Below are positions 50,807 through 64,000 of a DNA stretch of 64,000 nucleotides, piece by piece. The stretch lies in contig NZ_JAELTU010000025.1 of assembly GCF_016429015.1 (NCBI RefSeq), positions 1 through 64,000 on the forward strand, in the 5' to 3' direction. The translations under genes and the position numbers were made by a program. Source of the DNA: Rhizobium sp. ASV20. GTDB taxonomy: Bacteria > Pseudomonadota > Alphaproteobacteria > Rhizobiales > Rhizobiaceae. The notes under the pieces were generated by a model. The model was not told the DNA's origin and searched no databases. It saw only the letters and a list, made by a program, of their open reading frames with translations. The stretch's first letter is position 1. Every line of letters starts with the position of its first letter.

Positions 50807-50883
50807 GCACCCGTAGCTCAGCTGGATAGAGTGTTGGATTCCGATTCCAAAGGTCACAGGTTCGAATCCTGTCGGGTGCGCCA
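50807..50883 (+). tRNA. tRNA-Arg (anticodon CCG)
   Basis: A 77-base cloverleaf with encoded CCA. Acceptor GCACCCG / CGGGTGC, D arm around GCTCAGCTGGATAGAGT, anticodon stem TTGGA/TCCAA with loop TTCCGAT giving anticodon CCG, T arm with GGTTCGAATCC. Everything downstream looks accessory, so the 3' half is the likely integration site of the island. Confidence 0.96.
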
Positions 50884-52199: not shown

Positions 52200-52982
52200 T
52201 TATTCAGGAATTAGTTTCTTGACTTCAGCCTCAGCCAGAAAACCATACAAAGTTTCAAGTTCTCGTACTTTCGCGACGATACCCTTGGCTCGCCGAATTC
52301 TTTCATTTCGCCAAGCGGCATAATTGTATGATTCATTGAGACCATCGAAAATCTTGAATAGGTAATCACGCAGATTATGACAAAACCAGAATGACCGCTC
52401 GGCTATCCACTTTTCAAAAGAGTAAGAGTCAAACACATCTCCGTTAGACGAATTCCAGATTTTTGCGAGCCGTATGGCCGGCTTCACAAGATAGTTGTTC
52501 GCCTTATTTACGGTCTCTAGCGAACGGTTAAAATCGTTTGGGGTTGTGTCGCGCCATTCCTTCGATCCCTTTGGGATGCGGTACTCCGCACCCCAATATC
52601 CACTGAGAGCCGGAACCAAATCGAACTTGATGTGGTTGAGTTCAAGAACAATCGTGGGGCTCGATTGATATATCTCGGACGTAGAGTAGCGCTTCTCAAC
52701 GAACCTTTTCAAACGATCGAGATAGCTCTGTGGTGCCAAGCCGCCCTTCTCAAATACAATCATATAGTCGACGTCGGACGAGCTATCATCCCTTCGGGGC
52801 AGAATCGTACCGCGCGTAAATGATCCGAACGGAAAGTGGCTAGTTAGGCCATCCCCATCAAGTACAAAGTAGCTAGCTAGCCGATTCTGAAGGGTAGTGA
52901 GGGAGACCGAAATGCTTGCCTTCTCCGCCCCCGAAAGAACAGCCGACGAAGCGCGGTTGACGAGATAAGAATTGACGCTCAC
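52200..52982 (-). CDS. SMODS/CD-NTase family nucleotidyltransferase (CBASS-like cyclase)
   Basis: A 260-aa nucleotidyltransferase of the OAS/cGAS-like fold. GSFTRGT at residues 53-59 and SDVDYMIVF with Asp70 and Asp72, plus Asp121 in HIKFDLVPAL, make a complete catalytic triad. LDRLKRFVEKRYSTSEI and WNSSNGDVFDSYSFEKWIAE are typical SMODS helices. Such enzymes make cyclic oligonucleotides on phage infection to activate a partner effector. It starts with GTG inside the stop of the SLATT gene (GTGA), so the two are coupled. No Cap2/Cap3 or HORMA gene adjoins, so it would be a minimal (type I-like) CBASS. Confidence 0.9.
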   Translation of the reverse strand: MSVNSYLVNRASSAVLSGAEKASISVSLTTLQNRLASYFVLDGDGLTSHFPFGSFTRGTILPRRDDSSSDVDYMIVFEKGGLAPQSYLDRLKRFVEKRYSTSEIYQSSPTIVLELNHIKFDLVPALSGYWGAEYRIPKGSKEWRDTTPNDFNRSLETVNKANNYLVKPAIRLAKIWNSSNGDVFDSYSFEKWIAERSFWFCHNLRDYLFKIFDGLNESYNYAAWRNERIRRAKGIVAKVRELETLYGFLAEAEVKKLIPE

Positions 52983-53491
52983 CGCGGCTTCTGATCGACC
53001 GCGTGCCTTGCTTGGCCCGCATCGATTCCTCTTTTGGCCCGCTTAAAATCCCGGTCTGAAAATAGAGGACTCGCTTGATTTAGCTCATTGCGACGCTTAG
53101 TGAGCCCCTCCATTCCTTCCACCGCTGCGCCCTCAGCGAGATCCTGCAGAAGACTTACTTCGCGAAAGACCCGCGAGTCGTTTCGGAGGGAAAGATATTG
53201 ATCACCGGAGTTCTTATGTGAGTTTGATTTTTCGGCTGGCTTCAGAAATGTCATGAGCCCGCTCAAAATTGCCACCGTCGAGGCCATTATTCCAGCAACA
53301 AGCGTGTAGTCTTTGAAGAAGGCCGTGCCAGCTGCTGTGCTCAATACAACCGATGGAATACCAAACCAGTAATTCCAGCGGTTCCATCGGGCACTTGCGT
53401 TGAAATGAGACTTGCCTGAATGTATGCAATCTTCTTCCATCCGGAGAAGTTCATCGCTTATTGAACGTTTCAAAGAATCAGGAATAGCCAT
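52979..53491 (-). CDS. SLATT-domain two-TM effector protein
   Basis: A 170-aa membrane protein. Residues 1-35 form an amphipathic helix region, TM1 is WFGIPSVVLSTAAGTAFF (about 42-59), TM2 is LVAGIMASTVAILSGLMTFL (about 65-84), and the C-terminal helical part (SNSHKNSGDQYLSLRNDSRVF) is the SLATT core. SLATT proteins are predicted pore-forming effectors partnered with SMODS nucleotidyltransferases. First gene of the operon. No Shine-Dalgarno site is clear before the ATG at 53491, and the upstream bases are AT-rich. Confidence 0.9.
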   Translation of the reverse strand: MAIPDSLKRSISDELLRMEEDCIHSGKSHFNASARWNRWNYWFGIPSVVLSTAAGTAFFKDYTLVAGIMASTVAILSGLMTFLKPAEKSNSHKNSGDQYLSLRNDSRVFREVSLLQDLAEGAAVEGMEGLTKRRNELNQASPLFSDRDFKRAKRGIDAGQARHAVDQKPR

Positions 53492-57604: not shown

Positions 57605-57767
57605 CGATCTTCTGTCCGTCTTTGAGGATGGTAACGCGGCTTGCCTGTAGGCTTGCCGCAATCTCGGTTTTGGCCGCGCGTTTGCCGACCAGATAGGCCG
57701 GCGTCATCGCCAAGGCGGCACCGATCACGATGCCGCCTCCAATCTTGATAGCGTCGAAGGGCATCAT
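57522..57767 (-). CDS. Rz-like inner-membrane protein (i-spanin candidate)
   Basis: An 81-aa protein with one N-terminal membrane helix (KIGGGIVIGAALAMTPAYLVG) and a short periplasmic helical part (RAAKTEIAASLQASRVTIL). It starts at the stop of the endolysin gene (ATGA) and its last 83 bases encode the start of the Rz1-like lipoprotein in another frame. It is shorter than lambda Rz, but the layout is typical. Some phages have such a protein with other names (LysB). Confidence 0.65.
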   Translation of the reverse strand: MMPFDAIKIGGGIVIGAALAMTPAYLVGKRAAKTEIAASLQASRVTILKDGQKIDANAFQADDADLCLLLGGCLQPDSKGN

Positions 57768-58408
57768 GCGAGCTTCCGCCACGCCACATAGAGCGTGAGT
57801 CCCACGACGACGACCGCGAGACCCATCCGCAGCCACTCGCCGGAAGAGAGATCGCCCTGTTGCTGCGAGATGACTTCGACAGCCTTCGAAAGCGGCTCTT
57901 GCGCGACGGTTGCCGACGCGCCGACGCCGCTCGCAACGATGGCGACGGCCTTGGACTTGGCTTGCGTCTCGGTCTCCGCCGTGTATTTCGCGCCGGCAAC
58001 CGGACCCTTTGACGGGTATTGCTTCCAAGGCAACTGCCAGTGCGGGCCATCCTTGAAGCCCTTCCAGTCGCCGCCCCACTCGACGGCAATTCCAAGCTCG
58101 TTTGCCGCCTGCTTCATGGCCTTGGCGATCTTGTGATAGAGCGGCCAATCCCAAGACACTTCGCCATTGATGACCGGCGCGACATCGACCGCGTGGCCGT
58201 AGCCGTTCTCAGCCTTCAGATGGCGCGAATTCATCGTCTTCGACGCGCCCGACGCGACAAGCTGCTTCTGTCGTTCGACGGTGCGCAGCCCCTCAAGCAC
58301 CGTGAAATCAACTTCGGTGATCTGGATAGCACGCTTCACGATGCGCACGAGATCGGGATGCACTCCATTCAGGCGCGAAACGCTCCGCGCCGATAGCGTG
58401 TAGCTCAT
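57764..58408 (-). CDS. Phage endolysin, M15-type peptidase with C-terminal membrane anchor
   Basis: A 214-aa protein. The start ATG at 58408 gives YTLSARSVSRLNGVHPDLV. VLEGLRTVERQKQL, SRHLKAENGYGHAVDVAP (zinc His and Asp) and WGGDWKGFKDGPHWQLP (second His) are the L-alanyl-D-glutamate / VanY-like peptidase motifs that cut peptidoglycan peptides. A TM helix is at the C-terminus (RMGLAVVVVGLTLYVAW). It heads the lysis cassette endolysin, Rz-like, Rz1-like, holin. The anchor at the C-terminus is unusual for soluble endolysins and may delay release. Confidence 0.88.
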   Translation of the reverse strand: MSYTLSARSVSRLNGVHPDLVRIVKRAIQITEVDFTVLEGLRTVERQKQLVASGASKTMNSRHLKAENGYGHAVDVAPVINGEVSWDWPLYHKIAKAMKQAANELGIAVEWGGDWKGFKDGPHWQLPWKQYPSKGPVAGAKYTAETETQAKSKAVAIVASGVGASATVAQEPLSKAVEVISQQQGDLSSGEWLRMGLAVVVVGLTLYVAWRKLA

Positions 58409-58465
58409 TATGTAACTCCTATGTTTTGGAAAAACGCCGCTAGGGCGGGTCACAGCATCAAAAAC

Positions 58466-58519
58466 GTATCGTTTAGTGATACCATCTCGTTGACTTCCCG
58501 ACGTATCACTGTATGATAC
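58466..58519 (+). promoter_or_regulatory. higBA promoter with two operator palindromes
   Basis: TTGACT (58490-58495), 16 bp, TATGAT (58512-58517) form a good promoter 22 bp before higB. Two copies of GTATCR-N5-TGATAC (58466-58482 and 58503-58519) flank or cover it, the second over the -10. This fits autorepression by HigA. Confidence 0.8.
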
Positions 58520-58538
58520 CAAATATCAGGAGGCCGAT

Positions 58539-58820
58539 ATGATCCGTTCGTTCAAAGACAAGCTCACCGCATCGATCGATGACGGATCAATCAAGAAGGG
58601 TTTTCCGGCTGATCTGGTACGCCGCGCTCAACAACTGCTCTATGTGCTGAACGCAGCAACCAGCGTTGAAGACCTGCGGTCCCCGCCCGGCAATCGTCTG
58701 GAAAAGCTGTCGGGCGACCGTGCAGGTCAGCATTCGATTAGGATCAACAAGCAATGGCGCATCTGCTTCATCTGGACGGAAGCAGGGCCGGAGCAAGTCG
58801 AAATCACGGACTACCATTGA
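58539..58820 (+). CDS. higB: HigB-type toxin (RelE/ParE superfamily)
   Basis: A 93-aa toxin. IRSFKDKLTASIDDGS, LRSPPGNRLEKLSGDRAGQHSIRINKQWRICFIW and the EITDYH end match the plasmid maintenance killer (HigB) family, a ribosome-dependent mRNA endonuclease. AGGAGG is five bases upstream. It precedes its antitoxin, the usual HigBA order, and sits on the strand opposite to the prophage lysis and tail genes on both sides. Confidence 0.94.
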   Translation: MIRSFKDKLTASIDDGSIKKGFPADLVRRAQQLLYVLNAATSVEDLRSPPGNRLEKLSGDRAGQHSIRINKQWRICFIWTEAGPEQVEITDYH

Positions 58821-58872
58821 CCCGAAAGGGCATGGTAGCCATCATGACAACAGCCAAGGAGGGCAAGCGATC

Positions 58873-59169
58873 ATGACAGTTAGCAAACTCCCCGCGATCC
58901 ATCCGGGCGAAATCCTGCGGGAACTGTACCTCGAACCGCTCGACATGACGCCCTATGCGCTGGCGAAGCACATCAACGTGCCGCGCACCCGCGTTGAGCG
59001 CATCATCGCCGAAAAGACCGGCATCACCACAGACACGGCTATGCGGCTGGCGAAATTCTTCAAGACAGCCCCTGAATTCTGGCTGAACTTGCAGAATGCC
59101 TATGACATCAAGATCGCCGCCCGAGTGATGGAAAGCGACCTTGCGCAGATCAAAGAGATTGCCGCCTAG
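58873..59169 (+). CDS. higA: HigA-type antitoxin (XRE helix-turn-helix)
   Basis: A 98-aa antitoxin with AAGGAGGG upstream. IHPGEILRELYLEPLDMTPYALAKHINVPRTRVERII is the VapI/HigA helix-turn-helix and LAKFFKTAPEFWLNLQNAYDI is the conserved end. It neutralises HigB and represses the operon. The last two codons and stop fall inside a 22-bp sequence repeated exactly at 59817-59838. Confidence 0.95.
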   Translation: MTVSKLPAIHPGEILRELYLEPLDMTPYALAKHINVPRTRVERIIAEKTGITTDTAMRLAKFFKTAPEFWLNLQNAYDIKIAARVMESDLAQIKEIAA

Positions 59170-59838
59170 TTCTCATCCGTCCATCGACATTGGGGGGCCA
59201 TGAGCAACGAAGCTGGTAAAAAAGGCTAAGGGACCGGGAGACCTTACATCATGATACGCCGCCTATTCGCATTCTTTAGATCTGCCGTTACCAGTTCCTC
59301 TTCGGCGGCAACGGATGATCGGCCAGCAAGTGAACCGGCGCGCTTGGAGGACGATATCCAAACCGCCGCTCAGTGGATTTCCATGGCATTGCAAAGCTCA
59401 GGCTATGACGCCGATTTTACGCCTCAGAGCATGCGAGAGGTGGAACGGTTCTTCGATGAGCAAACGAACGAGGGCAAGCCGATAGCCGGCGGCCTCTTGT
59501 CACAAGACTACGGGCGGCGCTTGTTCGCGCTAGGCAGCTATTGCGGCGAGGTCCTTCGCAGAGAGCTGGGCGGCAACTGGGTAACAGATGATAGCGACCC
59601 GAATGGAGAAATCAATGTGGCTGTCAAACTGGGAAATAACGTTACCTGTTGGCCAGTTCAGCGGGTCATGAAACGGGCGAACAGTCGCGAAAATAGCTTA
59701 GTGCATTGGGCCATTTCACTAAGAGCCTGACCCATCAAGAGTTAAGTGGAACCAATCCCTTGTGGGTCTGCTTGTTTCCTTAGTCGAGAACAAGGCTGTA
59801 TTTCACCTTAGCTTCCGCCGCCTAGTTCTCATCCGTCC
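59161..59838. repeat. Exact 22-bp direct repeats flanking a 634-bp cassette
   Basis: The sequence starting GCCGCCTAGTTCTCATC occurs at 59161-59182 and again at 59817-59838, identical for 22 bases and diverging on both sides. The left copy encodes the end of higA, the right copy encodes (on the other strand) the last codons of gpD. Between them lies the 159-aa orphan gene. Confidence 0.9.
59251..59730 (+). CDS. Hypothetical protein in repeat-flanked cassette
   Basis: A 159-aa protein with GGGAG upstream of the ATG. The N-terminus is basic with a short hydrophobic stretch (IRRLFAFFRSAVTSSSS), then a soluble helical domain (FTPQSMREVERFFDEQ, GGLLSQDYGRRLFALGSYCGEVLRRELGGNWV) and a strand-rich end (INVAVKLGNNVTCWPVQRVMKR). 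The domain resembles small proteins of unknown function that occur singly in many bacteria. It probably belongs to the inserted segment rather than to the phage tail operon. Confidence 0.65.
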   Translation: MIRRLFAFFRSAVTSSSSAATDDRPASEPARLEDDIQTAAQWISMALQSSGYDADFTPQSMREVERFFDEQTNEGKPIAGGLLSQDYGRRLFALGSYCGEVLRRELGGNWVTDDSDPNGEINVAVKLGNNVTCWPVQRVMKRANSRENSLVHWAISLRA

Positions 59839-60985
59839 GCCCGAACCGGCGAGGGGTGAGGAAAGCCGAAGGCGTGGCGGGCGTGCCCGGCGCGCTGTTT
59901 GGCGCGACCTTGCCGCCGGCATCCGAGGCACCGGAGGATCCGCCGGCCTCCCCCTTCCCGCCGCCCTCGCTCTCGTCTTCCGTCGCCGACTTGCCGTCAT
60001 AGAGCCGCCCGGAAACGTCAACCTCAAAGCCCGATGTCTTGGTGTATTTGGAGCGCGCCGTCTTGATGATGTAGGGCACGCCGTCCAGTCCAGGGCGAAC
60101 ATCGGCGAAGAGAAGCGGCAAGCCCGCCTCAATCGTCTCGTCACCGATGACAGTCACCGAAACAGCGCCCTCGCCCCGCGCAAGCTCTTTCGCCTTGGCG
60201 CGAGCCGCCTTGTCGGCTTCGGCAGGCGATGAAAAGGCTTCGGGAATGCGGTAGACGCTGTCGCCGTCCGCATCCGATTCCGCCTCGATTTCGACCCGCT
60301 TCGCCTTGTCGGCATCCTGATAGTAGGACACAACCTTGCTGTATTTCGTGCGGTCGTTGATGTCGACTTTCAGCGTGCCGGTTTTGATCACCGAAGGCGT
60401 GAGGATGATTGAACCGAGCGACGAACCGGAGGCTGACAGGCCGGAGCCGCGCCGGGCAAACAATAGCCGCCGCTGCTTGATCGCGAACAGGGCATTATGC
60501 CGGTCAGCCAGCCGCCGCAGGAAATGGATGTTCGTTTCGTCCTGTTGCCCTATCCACTCATATTCATGCGCGGCGAGATCGCTATCCACGGCAGGCGTCA
60601 AGCCGCTCTCGCTTGCGATTTCGGATATGATGTCGCCGAGCTTGCTTTTGTCCCATGCCCGTTCCTGCCGCTCTTTCAGCTTGCCGGCGCGCAGGTCCGC
60701 CGCCTTGCCTGAAATCGACATCTTATAAGGCAGGCAATCGAGGCTGATCTTGTCAGCCGTGAATTGACCCTTCGACACGAGGTTGTTGCCGTATCCAATT
60801 TTGACCGAGATGATGGCACCCTTGCGCGGCAAAGCGAGGAAATTCGGCGGGCCGTCGTTCAGCTCGATATCGACCGTATCAGACTTCAAGCCCTCTTCAT
60901 CCGTCACGGTGACGGATATCAAGCGCTCATAGAATTGGCCCGCGACGGGAACACCGTCGACGGTGATTTCAACACGAGGATGCAT
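59822..60985 (-). CDS. D: Phage late control protein D (tail hub/spike, P2 gpD-like)
   Basis: A 387-aa baseplate hub protein. The ATG at 60985 is two bases after the gpX stop. HPRVEITVDGVPVAGQFYERLISVTVTDEEG at the start, ILPRKGAIISVKIGYG-type LALPRKGAIISVKIGYG, QQDETNIHFLRRLADRHNALFAIK and GTLKVDINDRTKYSKVVSYYQD are gpD features (VgrG-like fold). The tail end is a low-complexity Gly/Ser/Ala region. It is a late gene of a contractile P2-type tail. Confidence 0.93.
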   Translation of the reverse strand: MHPRVEITVDGVPVAGQFYERLISVTVTDEEGLKSDTVDIELNDGPPNFLALPRKGAIISVKIGYGNNLVSKGQFTADKISLDCLPYKMSISGKAADLRAGKLKERQERAWDKSKLGDIISEIASESGLTPAVDSDLAAHEYEWIGQQDETNIHFLRRLADRHNALFAIKQRRLLFARRGSGLSASGSSLGSIILTPSVIKTGTLKVDINDRTKYSKVVSYYQDADKAKRVEIEAESDADGDSVYRIPEAFSSPAEADKAARAKAKELARGEGAVSVTVIGDETIEAGLPLLFADVRPGLDGVPYIIKTARSKYTKTSGFEVDVSGRLYDGKSATEDESEGGGKGEAGGSSGASDAGGKVAPNSAPGTPATPSAFLTPRRFGRTDEN

Positions 60986-60987
60986 GA

Positions 60988-61200
60988 TCAATCCCAAAGG
61001 CTGACAAGCCGACGCTCCGCGCTAACGCTCGGCAGGTCGGGCATGAAGATTTCAGTGCCGAGTGGAAGAACCGGGCCAAGGGCAGCAAGGCCACGATTGG
61101 CCGAAAGCACCGCCTCAACTGCGCCCGCCGTTCGTCCGTAGTGATTGAAACAGGCAGTATCGACCGTTTCACCCTGTCGGGTTGTGTATGTCTTAGCCAT
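60988..61200 (-). CDS. X: Phage tail protein X (LysM-like)
   Basis: A 70-aa protein, the usual size of P2 gpX. KTYTTRQGETVDTACFNHYGR and NRGLAALGPVLPLGTEIFMPDLP make a LysM-like fold. It is part of the tail tube end or baseplate. Start ATG at 61200, five bases after gpU; stop next to gpD. Confidence 0.92.
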   Translation of the reverse strand: MAKTYTTRQGETVDTACFNHYGRTAGAVEAVLSANRGLAALGPVLPLGTEIFMPDLPSVSAERRLVSLWD

Positions 61201-61204
61201 GGGA

Positions 61205-61669
61205 TCACCGGAAAAGATTGGAGAGGAAAGAACTTGCGCTATCGCGCAAGCCGCCGGCACCCGCCGCCGCTTCGGTCGGCAACCGCTTGAGCGAGATCAC
61301 ATAGGCATTCCGGCGAGCGACCCCGCTGGCGTCGTGGAAAGACATGTCTTCCTCGACTGACTGCACTGTGAACATGCCGCGAATGATGCCCTCGACGGCA
61401 TCGCCGCTCACCAGCATCATTTCCATGCCGGCCAGTGATGCGGCAATGATGCCGTCAAGTTGCGACTGCCCGCCGAACTCTTCGGGAAACAAGACGCCCT
61501 GAATCGTCACTTCGTCGGACGTTGGGCCTGTCCACTGTTGCGGATTGAGGGTTTGGCCCACGGGTATCTCAACCCAAGGCGTATTCACCTTGCGTTTGAC
61601 ACCCTGATAGCCAAAGCCCAACGCCTCGAAGGCGTAGCCTCCGAGCATCATCGATGTTACACCCGTCAT
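61205..61669 (-). CDS. U: Phage tail protein U (tail terminator-like)
   Basis: A 154-aa gpU protein. The ATG at 61669 gives MLGGYAFEALGFGYQGVKR; PTSDEVTIQGVLFPEEFGG and MFTVQSVEEDMSFHDASG are the conserved blocks of the P2 gpU family. The minus-strand operon is broken just upstream by a plus-strand gene (61730-62053). Confidence 0.92.
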   Translation of the reverse strand: MTGVTSMMLGGYAFEALGFGYQGVKRKVNTPWVEIPVGQTLNPQQWTGPTSDEVTIQGVLFPEEFGGQSQLDGIIAASLAGMEMMLVSGDAVEGIIRGMFTVQSVEEDMSFHDASGVARRNAYVISLKRLPTEAAAGAGGLRDSASSFLSNLFR

Positions 61670-61729
61670 GGGGACTCCGTTGCTGCTGAACAAACGGCGG
61701 TTGCGGCGCCGCCATTCGATGGGGGGAAA

Positions 61730-62053
61730 ATGAGCGAGAATGAATTTGCCGTGGTGCTTTTGCTGGTCGGCGCGGCGGGTGGCGCGTGGGGCGCGCGCAG
61801 TTCTGGAACGCAGGCTTGGCGCGGTGCCGTCGTAATCGCTTCGTCTATGCTGATTACGCTCGCAATATTCGTCGCGTTCGCAGTCAACAATCAATACCTA
61901 GCCGCAGCATGCAATCTCGCACTCGTTGCGATAATTGGCGGTGCATTGAAAATGACGCCGCGACAGATCGCGACGGCAACGATGGGCGCCATAATACTTG
62001 GTGCAGTCGGCGGCGTGATTGTCGGCATCACGAACCCGAAGCTATTGGGCTAG
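61730..62053 (+). CDS. Small multi-TM protein inside the tail operon (moron)
   Basis: A 107-aa, highly hydrophobic protein with about four membrane segments (FAVVLLLVGAAGGAWGA, AVVIASSMLITLAIFVAFAV, LAAACNLALVAIIGGAL, ATMGAIILGAVGGVIVGI). GGGGGGAAAA precedes the ATG. It runs against the tail genes, between tape measure and gpU, and its stop shares the palindromic CTAG with the stop of the tape measure gene. Such opposite-strand membrane genes in prophages are often superinfection-exclusion or lysogenic conversion genes, but no family is recognised. Confidence 0.7.
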   Translation: MSENEFAVVLLLVGAAGGAWGARSSGTQAWRGAVVIASSMLITLAIFVAFAVNNQYLAAACNLALVAIIGGALKMTPRQIATATMGAIILGAVGGVIVGITNPKLLG

Positions 62054-64000
62054 TCGCTGAACTGCGAATCCACGGCTGTTTTCACAGAAGCGCCAAGTTG
62101 GTTCGCGGCGGCTGTGGCGGCAGCTTGTGGGTCTGTAACACCAGTGATTGAGAATTGAGCGTGAACCGTCACATTAGGCGGCTGCTGATTGACAACCCGC
62201 ACATCTTGCGTCCCGCTTGGCCTAACCATCTCGGCAATAGAAGACGCATCGATACGGGTCGTTTTAATTCCGAGATCGTCCGCCGTCTTTCCGGGTAGCG
62301 TTTCGGTTGTCGACCCGCCAATGCCGGCGGCGCGAGCTGCACGCGCACTATCCATCGCAGATTGCGCGTAGACGCCAGCAGGAGCCGGCCCGTTTTCAGA
62401 CAAGGCGAACGACTTAAGATATGCCCCTATGGCATGCAGAGCATCTTCCGGGCCGGGCAACCACGCCTTTCCCTGCTTGTAGAAGGTGTCACCGGTATAA
62501 CTTTGCCGGCCAAACTCGACACCCCCCGCCGCCGCCCCACCAATGGTGAAGAGACGGGCAAAACCTAACGCCATCGTCGAAAGACGACCAAGCAAGGTCC
62601 CGCCGGCAACTTGTGCGGCAGGGTTGGTTGCAACTTTCGTCACGATATCCGTGCCACCGCCCCCGCCGAGGATCGTCGCAAGCGTGCCCACGGTTTTCAG
62701 TGCCCCAATTAGGGTACTTGCACCAGACAATAAAAACATAGCGCTGGCGAGCTTGCGAACGGTGCCGGCGAGAAAGGCAATGCCAGTACCCCACAAAACA
62801 AGCTTGAGGCCATAGCCGGACATTTCCGCGAAGAACTTGGCAATCGGGTTTTCGCGGATGGCATCCGTCAACTCGCGCACCGACGCGCCCCATTCCTTCG
62901 CCTTCATGAAAAACCGGCCAAGGTTCTCGCCGGCATTCGGGTCGACCTTTCCAAGCATGAGGTCGCTTATGTCGTTGACCAGTTCGCGAATGCCGCCGTC
63001 ATAGCCAAATCCCTTTGCAAAGCCCTGCACCCCGACTGTCATTTTGTCGAAGATCGTCGCCCGGCTTCCAAGGGTGTCCAAGACATCGCTGATCGCCTGC
63101 GCGCCCTCTCGGATCGTCGGCAACATGCGGTCGCCCACATCCCAAAAGATGTTGGATACCTTGTTGCCCAACAGCTCAAGCGCGTTGCCCGTGGTGCTGG
63201 CACGCTGCTTGTACTCATTCATGGCGGAACCGGCATACTTCGTGCGGTCGCTGACACTGGCAAGCGCGTCGTCCAAAAGCTTGACGTTGCCGAGTAGCGG
63301 AATGAACGCCTTGGCCTCATCACCGAAGAAATCCGACACGATGGATATCTGTTGATCCTTCGGAGCCTTCGCGATTGCGGCAAGAACCTTTTTCAGCGCT
63401 GCCGGCGCATCCTTCTGCATCTGCTTGGCGATCTGCGGCAAATCAAGCCCAAGCCGTTCAGCGGCTGCGCGCTGGCTCTTCTTTGCCGACGCGCCGCGCG
63501 TGAGGGCCTTCGTCACGTTCTGCATGGCGGTCGCCGCCACTTCCGGCTCCGCACCGGCTGCAATCATGGCACTGCCGATGCCGGCAACCTGCTCTTTGGT
63601 GAAACCGGCGATCTTGCCGAGCGCGCCGACGCGCAGCATGAAATCCGTGATTTCGGACGCCTTGCTTGCCATATTGTTCGACAGGTAGTTCATGACATCG
63701 GCAAGGTCGCCAGTCTCGGCAACCGTCAAGCCAAACTGCGTTTTCAGTTTAGCCAGGCTAGAGCCTGCCTTTTCCGCCGTGATGTCGAAGGCGATGCCGA
63801 CACGAGACGCCATCTCCGCGAAACTCTGCAAATCCTGCGTTGCGATGCCGGACTCGCCGGCAGCAGCGAACAGCGCAGCAATGTTATTGGCAGACATCGG
63901 GATTTCGCCAGACATGCGCCGAATATTCCGGCGCATGTTTTCGAACTGCTCGCTGGACGCGTCGACCACCTTTTTGACATCGGCAAAGGCGGATTCGAAT
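62050..64000 (-). CDS. T: Phage tail tape measure protein, 5' end cut by window edge
   Basis: At least 650 residues; the frame is open to the last base, so the N-terminus lies beyond the window (a GTG at 63969 is internal, not a start). IPMSANNIAALFAAAGESGIATQDLQSFAEMASRVGIAFDI and GNALELLGNKVSNIFWDVGDRMLPTI are TP901/P2-type tape measure features. Hydrophobic helices near GLKLVLWGTGIAFLAGTVRKLASAMFLL fit membrane contact during DNA injection. Its stop overlaps that of the convergent small membrane gene. Confidence 0.93.
   Translation of the reverse strand, partial: FESAFADVKKVVDASSEQFENMRRNIRRMSGEIPMSANNIAALFAAAGESGIATQDLQSFAEMASRVGIAFDITAEKAGSSLAKLKTQFGLTVAETGDLADVMNYLSNNMASKASEITDFMLRVGALGKIAGFTKEQVAGIGSAMIAAGAEPEVAATAMQNVTKALTRGASAKKSQRAAAERLGLDLPQIAKQMQKDAPAALKKVLAAIAKAPKDQQISIVSDFFGDEAKAFIPLLGNVKLLDDALASVSDRTKYAGSAMNEYKQRASTTGNALELLGNKVSNIFWDVGDRMLPTIREGAQAISDVLDTLGSRATIFDKMTVGVQGFAKGFGYDGGIRELVNDISDLMLGKVDPNAGENLGRFFMKAKEWGASVRELTDAIRENPIAKFFAEMSGYGLKLVLWGTGIAFLAGTVRKLASAMFLLSGASTLIGALKTVGTLATILGGGGGTDIVTKVATNPAAQVAGGTLLGRLSTMALGFARLFTIGGAAAGGVEFGRQSYTGDTFYKQGKAWLPGPEDALHAIGAYLKSFALSENGPAPAGVYAQSAMDSARAARAAGIGGSTTETLPGKTADDLGIKTTRIDASSIAEMVRPSGTQDVRVVNQQPPNVTVHAQFSITGVTDPQAAATAAANQLGASVKTAVDSQFSD

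Follow-up and report, generated by a model that had tools for sequence, protein, structure and literature searches.

The question raised by this locus is how an exact 22-bp direct repeat came to mark the ends of two prophage genes, the antitoxin gene higA and the tail gene gpD, and whether the DNA between the two copies is a cassette that moves by means of them. The window, i.e., the whole stretch that was analysed, comprises 64,000 nucleotides of Rhizobium sp. ASV20 (contig NZ_JAELTU010000025.1, positions 1 to 64,000). The prophage is termed P2-like on the basis of gpD and its neighbours only, and its right end lies outside the contig, which stops at 65269. The features concerned are as follows.

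57764..58408, minus strand: M15-type endolysin, far border of the slot discussed below (PF13539, 1.1e-10; phrog_465, 3e-71)
58539..58820, plus strand: higB toxin, likely established earlier in the slot (PF05015, 5.9e-17; relatives in L035, L042, L048 and L105)
58873..59169, plus strand: higA antitoxin, C-terminal end altered, stop from R1 (TIGR02607, 2.3e-31)
59161..59182, plus strand: repeat copy R1, covering the final Ala-Ala-TAG of higA and 13 nt beyond it; a derived copy of the gpD tail
59251..59730, plus strand: 159-aa gene, its last codons and stop running into the IS end; homologue in L108
59723..59783, plus strand: left-end remnant of an IS5-family element, 61 bp, with TAA before it; ~76-82% identity to IS copies
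59784..59816, no strand: 33 bp separating the IS remnant from R2; the IS-end matches listed all stop at 59783 (query position 601)
59817..59838, minus strand: repeat copy R2, the native gpD 3' end, 17 nt coding including the stop and 5 nt downstream
59822..60985, minus strand: gpD, phage tail/baseplate hub protein, intact ORF (PF05954, 1.9e-11; phrog_52, 9.7e-93)

The repeat, GCCGCCTAGTTCTCATCCGTCC, is present twice in identical form, at 59161-59182 and 59817-59838, with a start-to-start spacing of 656 bp. No other exact direct repeat in the 64-kb window is as long (the runner-up has 18 bp), and 22 bp exceeds the longest repeats of all 60 first-order Markov simulations (14-19 bp). The first-pass annotation had reported such a repeat and called chance identity negligible, and both statements hold. 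It had also taken the 22 bases to encode both gene ends; they do mark both, but are coding only in part, with 9 nt in higA (Ala-Ala-stop; the other 13 bases of R1 lie beyond the higA stop) and 17 nt in gpD. When up to 3 mismatches were allowed, the draft genome (8.29 Mb) contained the 22-mer exactly at two places and with 3 mismatches at a third, which lies within an unrelated ORF on contig C293. A search of viral contigs for the exact 22-mer gave no match.

Misjoining of short-read contigs at the 22-mer would be a trivial explanation, and one for which the assembly gives some grounds, being a draft in 1068 contigs, with contamination estimated at 5.38% and a second gpD fragment on contig C378. 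However, R1 and R2 lie inside one 65-kb contig, the C378 fragment spans gpD residues 1-55 only, and a misjoin would still require a real molecule with the repeat to the left of the 159-aa gene. An assembly artefact is accordingly given very little credence.

An attachment site was considered and rejected, given that the only tRNA gene found in the window, tRNA-Arg(CCG) at 50807-50883 (plus strand), lies 8 kb away and that the 22-mer stands at just two exact places in the genome. This tRNA gene is found close to where host-like genes give way to the phage-like region and is a possible integration site; the other end lies beyond the contig. A CBASS-like pair (52200-53491, minus strand) lies towards the left end of the prophage region and consists of a nucleotidyltransferase (SMODS, PF18144, 1.3e-36; PADLOC cyclase, 2.4e-104) and a SLATT/2TM effector (PADLOC, 5.8e-68; Pfam SLATT_4 below cut-off). 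Elsewhere in the same genome, contig C378 (695-1563, L113) holds a decayed relative of the prophage, in which a gpD match limited to residues 1-55 is followed by sequence resembling, by eye, the GNAT gene that adjoins gpD in L036.

The two copies can be ordered by comparing each with its relatives. On the gpD side, 28 viral loci were gathered with bait peptides that do not include the tail; two of them (L057 and L060) end at contig ends, and all 26 that reach the gpD end carry the C-terminus R[T/I]DEN-stop (RTDEN in 23, RIDEN in 3). Six genome loci labelled Rhizobium or Rhizobiales, several of them the same contigs, are further gpD relatives. On the HigA side, DNA similarity to the window ends within or at the repeat, at 59166 against L042 and L035 and at 59161 against L183. 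The L183 match shows 93% DNA identity over 517 bp and a HigA protein 96% identical; its source, genus genome G100, falls outside the set of 17 genomes, out of 148 of the genus, that have a gpD match. In all three loci, higA ends GCATGA or GCATAA and the next ORF begins 15 bases on, whereas the window frame ends GCC GCC TAG, its TAG being the gpD end read in antisense, and the downstream ORF is missing, the 159-aa gene and the IS end being found instead. That ORF is presumably DUF2442-like; a Pfam scan of its L042 copy gave no match, while for the longer relatives found in L036 and L043 the only matches were weak Xre-like HTH ones below the curated cut-off. Since all 26 viral loci keep the tail and the three nearest HigA relatives lack it, the gpD copy is taken as the original: R2 is, on this comparison, the native or ancestral copy and R1 the derived one. 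The reverse order is rejected on the same grounds. The earlier suggestion that an insertion next to gpD duplicated its 3' end is thus upheld.

At its first six bases the repeat takes the place of native higA codons, which puts the join within a stretch that both parents could share. More distant HigA relatives (L048, L105 and L106) likewise differ from the repeat. In L106, the higA stop region is TAGTTGTCA, which matches TAGTTCTCA at 8 of 9 bases. This likeness is regarded as coincidence, yet it counts slightly against reading the repeat as a scar, as some higA lineage could possess a few bases of R1 natively.

The first-pass annotation had further supposed that higBA perhaps arrived together with the repeat. 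This is not needed: L035, L042 and L048 have HigBA in this slot, and L105 has it next to a partial gpD on a plasmid of Agrobacterium, in each case without the repeat. The presence of HigBA in such slots is, as far as these loci go, independent of the 22 bp, and higB is likely an older resident. The L105 locus (Agrobacterium tumefaciens plasmid pAtK224a, 3500-6400) is a prophage remnant with endolysin pieces, HigBA and partial gpD, and adjoins acyl-homoserine-lactone synthase and LuxR-type genes.

The interval into which these genes fall varies among relatives. Endolysins of the window type, whose profile scores come from a longer ORF (57764-58522) and whose 57764..58408 form has a start set by comparison with relatives, were found in 12 of the 28 viral gpD loci. 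In five of these (L050, L051, L053, L055 and L058), gpD stop and endolysin start are separated by 43-44 bp, so that the window genes stand between phage genes that are adjacent in these relatives; in the remaining seven, the interval measures 1069-4021 bp. A total of 57 ORFs were listed over 18 chosen loci, with some intervals extending to the holin and including lysis genes. Ten ORFs were scanned, giving GNAT (L042, L036), DUF4145 (L037), DUF6615 with DUF4160 (L043), YaaC (L039), YfbU with RHH (L040) and FRG (L056), and two without a match. Judged by this gene content, the interval from gpD to the endolysin is a variable cargo slot that holds different genes in relatives, as the earlier proposal of recurrent cargo at the gpD end had anticipated. 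The check proposed there, an alignment with related prophages, yielded single-copy versions free of cargo (the five loci with 43-44 bp); relatives that lack the cassette and carry both repeats, the finding named as contrary, were not encountered among those compared. HigBA recurs as cargo in different phages (the three viral slots and the plasmid remnant named above). For the 159-aa gene, by contrast with HigBA, seven stretches in viral contigs fitted the search pattern, none was confirmed, and phage records contained no match.

Base composition differs little across the region (GC 55.0% in the 159-aa gene, 55.9% in higBA, 60.8% in gpD and 58.8% in 60986-64000). By consensus scan, promoter-like sites precede higB (58490-58517) and higA (58817-58845), none was found on the plus strand ahead of the 159-aa gene, and the sole terminator-like site (58582-58564) is away from that gene. 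The slots of L036, L037, L038, L041, L043 and L077 share a recurring small ORF that contains MDMPRIES on the lysis-gene side, at the place held by HigBA in the window. It adjoins a DUF4160 ORF in L043, with similar starts in L037 and L077, and the two are possibly an alternative two-gene module.

The enclosed DNA had been described as a one-gene cassette. The 159-aa gene is indeed enclosed, but the piece, going by its matches, is composite and no clean cassette: the 159-aa gene is followed by a 61-bp IS end (59723-59783) and then by 33 bp. The last codons and TGA of the 159-aa frame come from the IS end. The only good homologue found, in L108, is 43-49% identical and runs just five residues further, so the truncation is small. 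Four weak matches to Streptomyces plasmid proteins were also obtained, including one annotated DUF3806 (E 2e-3, 28.8%), and no Pfam, PHROG, NCBIfam or PADLOC profile matched at E<=1. The predicted fold is poor (mean pLDDT 50.4). Matches to the protein are confined to the own genome among 148 of the genus and to three genomes, own included, among 397 of the order.

The IS end is much more widespread. Besides the own genome, 17 of 148 genus genomes have IS ends that match the stretch 59719-59783; for the whole 634-bp piece, any match at all is found in 22 of 148 including the own, four of them with only other short matches. Among plasmids, 43 records match the piece (Rhizobium, Sinorhizobium, Neorhizobium, Agrobacterium and Ensifer), and the best 30 of the 43 all do so at the IS end. 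The 33 bp ahead of R2 (59784-59816) are covered by none of the matches listed for genus genomes and plasmids. The element, which we take to belong to the IS427-like group, encodes an IS4/5-type DDE transposase in its L020 copy (PF01609/PF13340). TNA precedes GAGCC at 24 of 24 filtered IS ends (26 loci given), as TAA precedes GAGCC in the window. Both ends were found in nine full copies, five of which share one flank; the flanking triplet is the same on both sides in seven and different in two (L021 and L107).

Exact direct repeats around foreign DNA that holds an IS end are also what a target-site duplication left by an inserting transposable element would look like. However, the insert has no terminal inverted repeats (score 8, a value reached by 33% of 500 shuffles) and contains no transposase or recombinase, the 159-aa protein being the main enclosed ORF and lacking any profile match at E<=1. 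The IS end is internal, with the customary TNA of that element before it. Furthermore, such a duplication presupposes that higA was already fused to gpD. It is scarcely probable as the source of the 22 bp.

A different possibility is that cargo docks repeatedly at the gpD 3' end, or that this end serves site-specific recombination, with cargo moving as circles or by exchange through a phage recombinase. Similarity to the window does break off near the gpD stop in the 26 viral loci that reach it (at 59815-59824, no more than 7 bp from the stop), and two identical copies would fit a recent exchange. The first-pass annotation had seen here a repeated insertion point for cargo at the gpD end. Second copies were sought in 92 non-own loci with a match reaching gpD residue 385 or beyond, reduced to 52 by merging identical gpD ends; this set is no proof of tail conservation, as the tail pattern served to collect some of its members and all were required to reach the end. 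No second tail, whether the own or that of the window, was present downstream of gpD in any of the 52 distinct loci (up to 4 mismatches, 372-6000 bases per locus). The single 5-mismatch site, in L075, lies inside a DUF4160 gene, and we estimate that chance alone would give ~0.3 such sites across the set. The tail 22-mers of the 52 loci differ from that of the window by 2-10 bases, hence no fixed site is kept. Similarly, each of 48 viral stretches, which overlap with the 52 loci, has one exact match to a degenerate RTDEN-stop pattern, although such a pattern would miss a drifted second copy. A repeat pair with other cargo between its copies was found in none of these loci and stretches. The slot recurs, yet the 22-mer itself is, on these counts, not a recurrent insertion site, and the claim of a repeated insertion point is not supported; a dedicated recombination site appears highly improbable. 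The other option raised in that annotation, an arrival of the 159-aa gene through recombination at the 22-mer, is no more than a possibility. The gpD 3' end may also be conceived as a general docking seam, with crossovers in the last codons and an incoming piece that restores the gpD end, usually without a scar, so that the old tail left here would be the rare case. This too is rather improbable.

The reading we consider probable is that recombination left the repeat as a scar in a slot for variable cargo (morons), which separates gpD from the lysis genes in this P2-like Rhizobium prophage. The polarity of the copies, the altered end and missing neighbour of higA, the composite insert and the variable slot are observed by comparison, and from them we infer a join and an acquisition. 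A non-homologous join would have fused the last codons of higA to the antisense of the gpD end, probably aided by a shared GCCGCC microhomology. In the same or a later event, 59183-59816 would have been joined in from another phage along with an intact gpD end. The outcome would be ~16 nt of gpD tail on both sides (22 bp counting shared bases) and replacement of the downstream neighbours of higA. The intermediate, with higA joined straight to gpD through one copy, and a donor phage with the 159-aa gene were not found in the collections searched, so the order of events is unseen. In a study of phage mosaics, those of Escherichia coli phages are described as mainly homology-driven and illegitimate recombination as probably much rarer (PMC3945230), which counts against a non-homologous join.

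One-step template switching in replication, whereby 16-22 nt of gpD tail were copied onto higA before a jump to donor DNA, could account for the short copied tract and for the up to six shared bases at the higA junction. Only a donor or an intermediate would distinguish it from two successive crossovers; the latter seem likelier, and a single switch is unlikely. Under the scar reading, the event would be recent, as is suggested by exact copies set against a gpD DNA identity of ~88% between the window and its nearest relatives, although 22 bases date little. On the same reading, the repeat is without a role of its own; it may permit loss of the cassette at low frequency.

The locus is a clean, polarised case of cargo replacement in a phage slot, with one border legible to the base: an antitoxin gene, higA, now closes in the antisense of the stop of the tail gene gpD. 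It also carries a caution, in that a short exact repeat should not be read as an attachment site without comparison of relatives.

Among known systems, the 61-bp end resembles the IS5-family element in the TNA before it and in its ~76-82% identity to Rhizobium and Sinorhizobium copies. However, unlike a full element, it has one end only, lacks the transposase and is not the source of the 22-bp repeat. Morons, as PMC2920897 describes them, are extra genes, including toxin-antitoxin pairs, that lie between two conserved phage genes and differ among related phages. The slot is like such cargo hot spots in holding a toxin-antitoxin pair and varied genes at the same place, and unlike them in that one junction bears a duplicated gene end of 22 bp and that a consensus scan found no promoter for the 159-aa gene. 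For temperate phage mosaics, PMC3945230 gives traces of homology at the borders of ~30% of mosaics, leaves open the origin of the other ~70%, and puts the Red-beta minimum at 30 bp. Small fragments are exchanged in both cases, but the exchanges in that account are mainly homology-driven, whereas here a duplicated tail was left and its 22 bp fall short of the 30-bp minimum. The locus is probably a product of ordinary phage mosaicism and not of a new mobile-element system.
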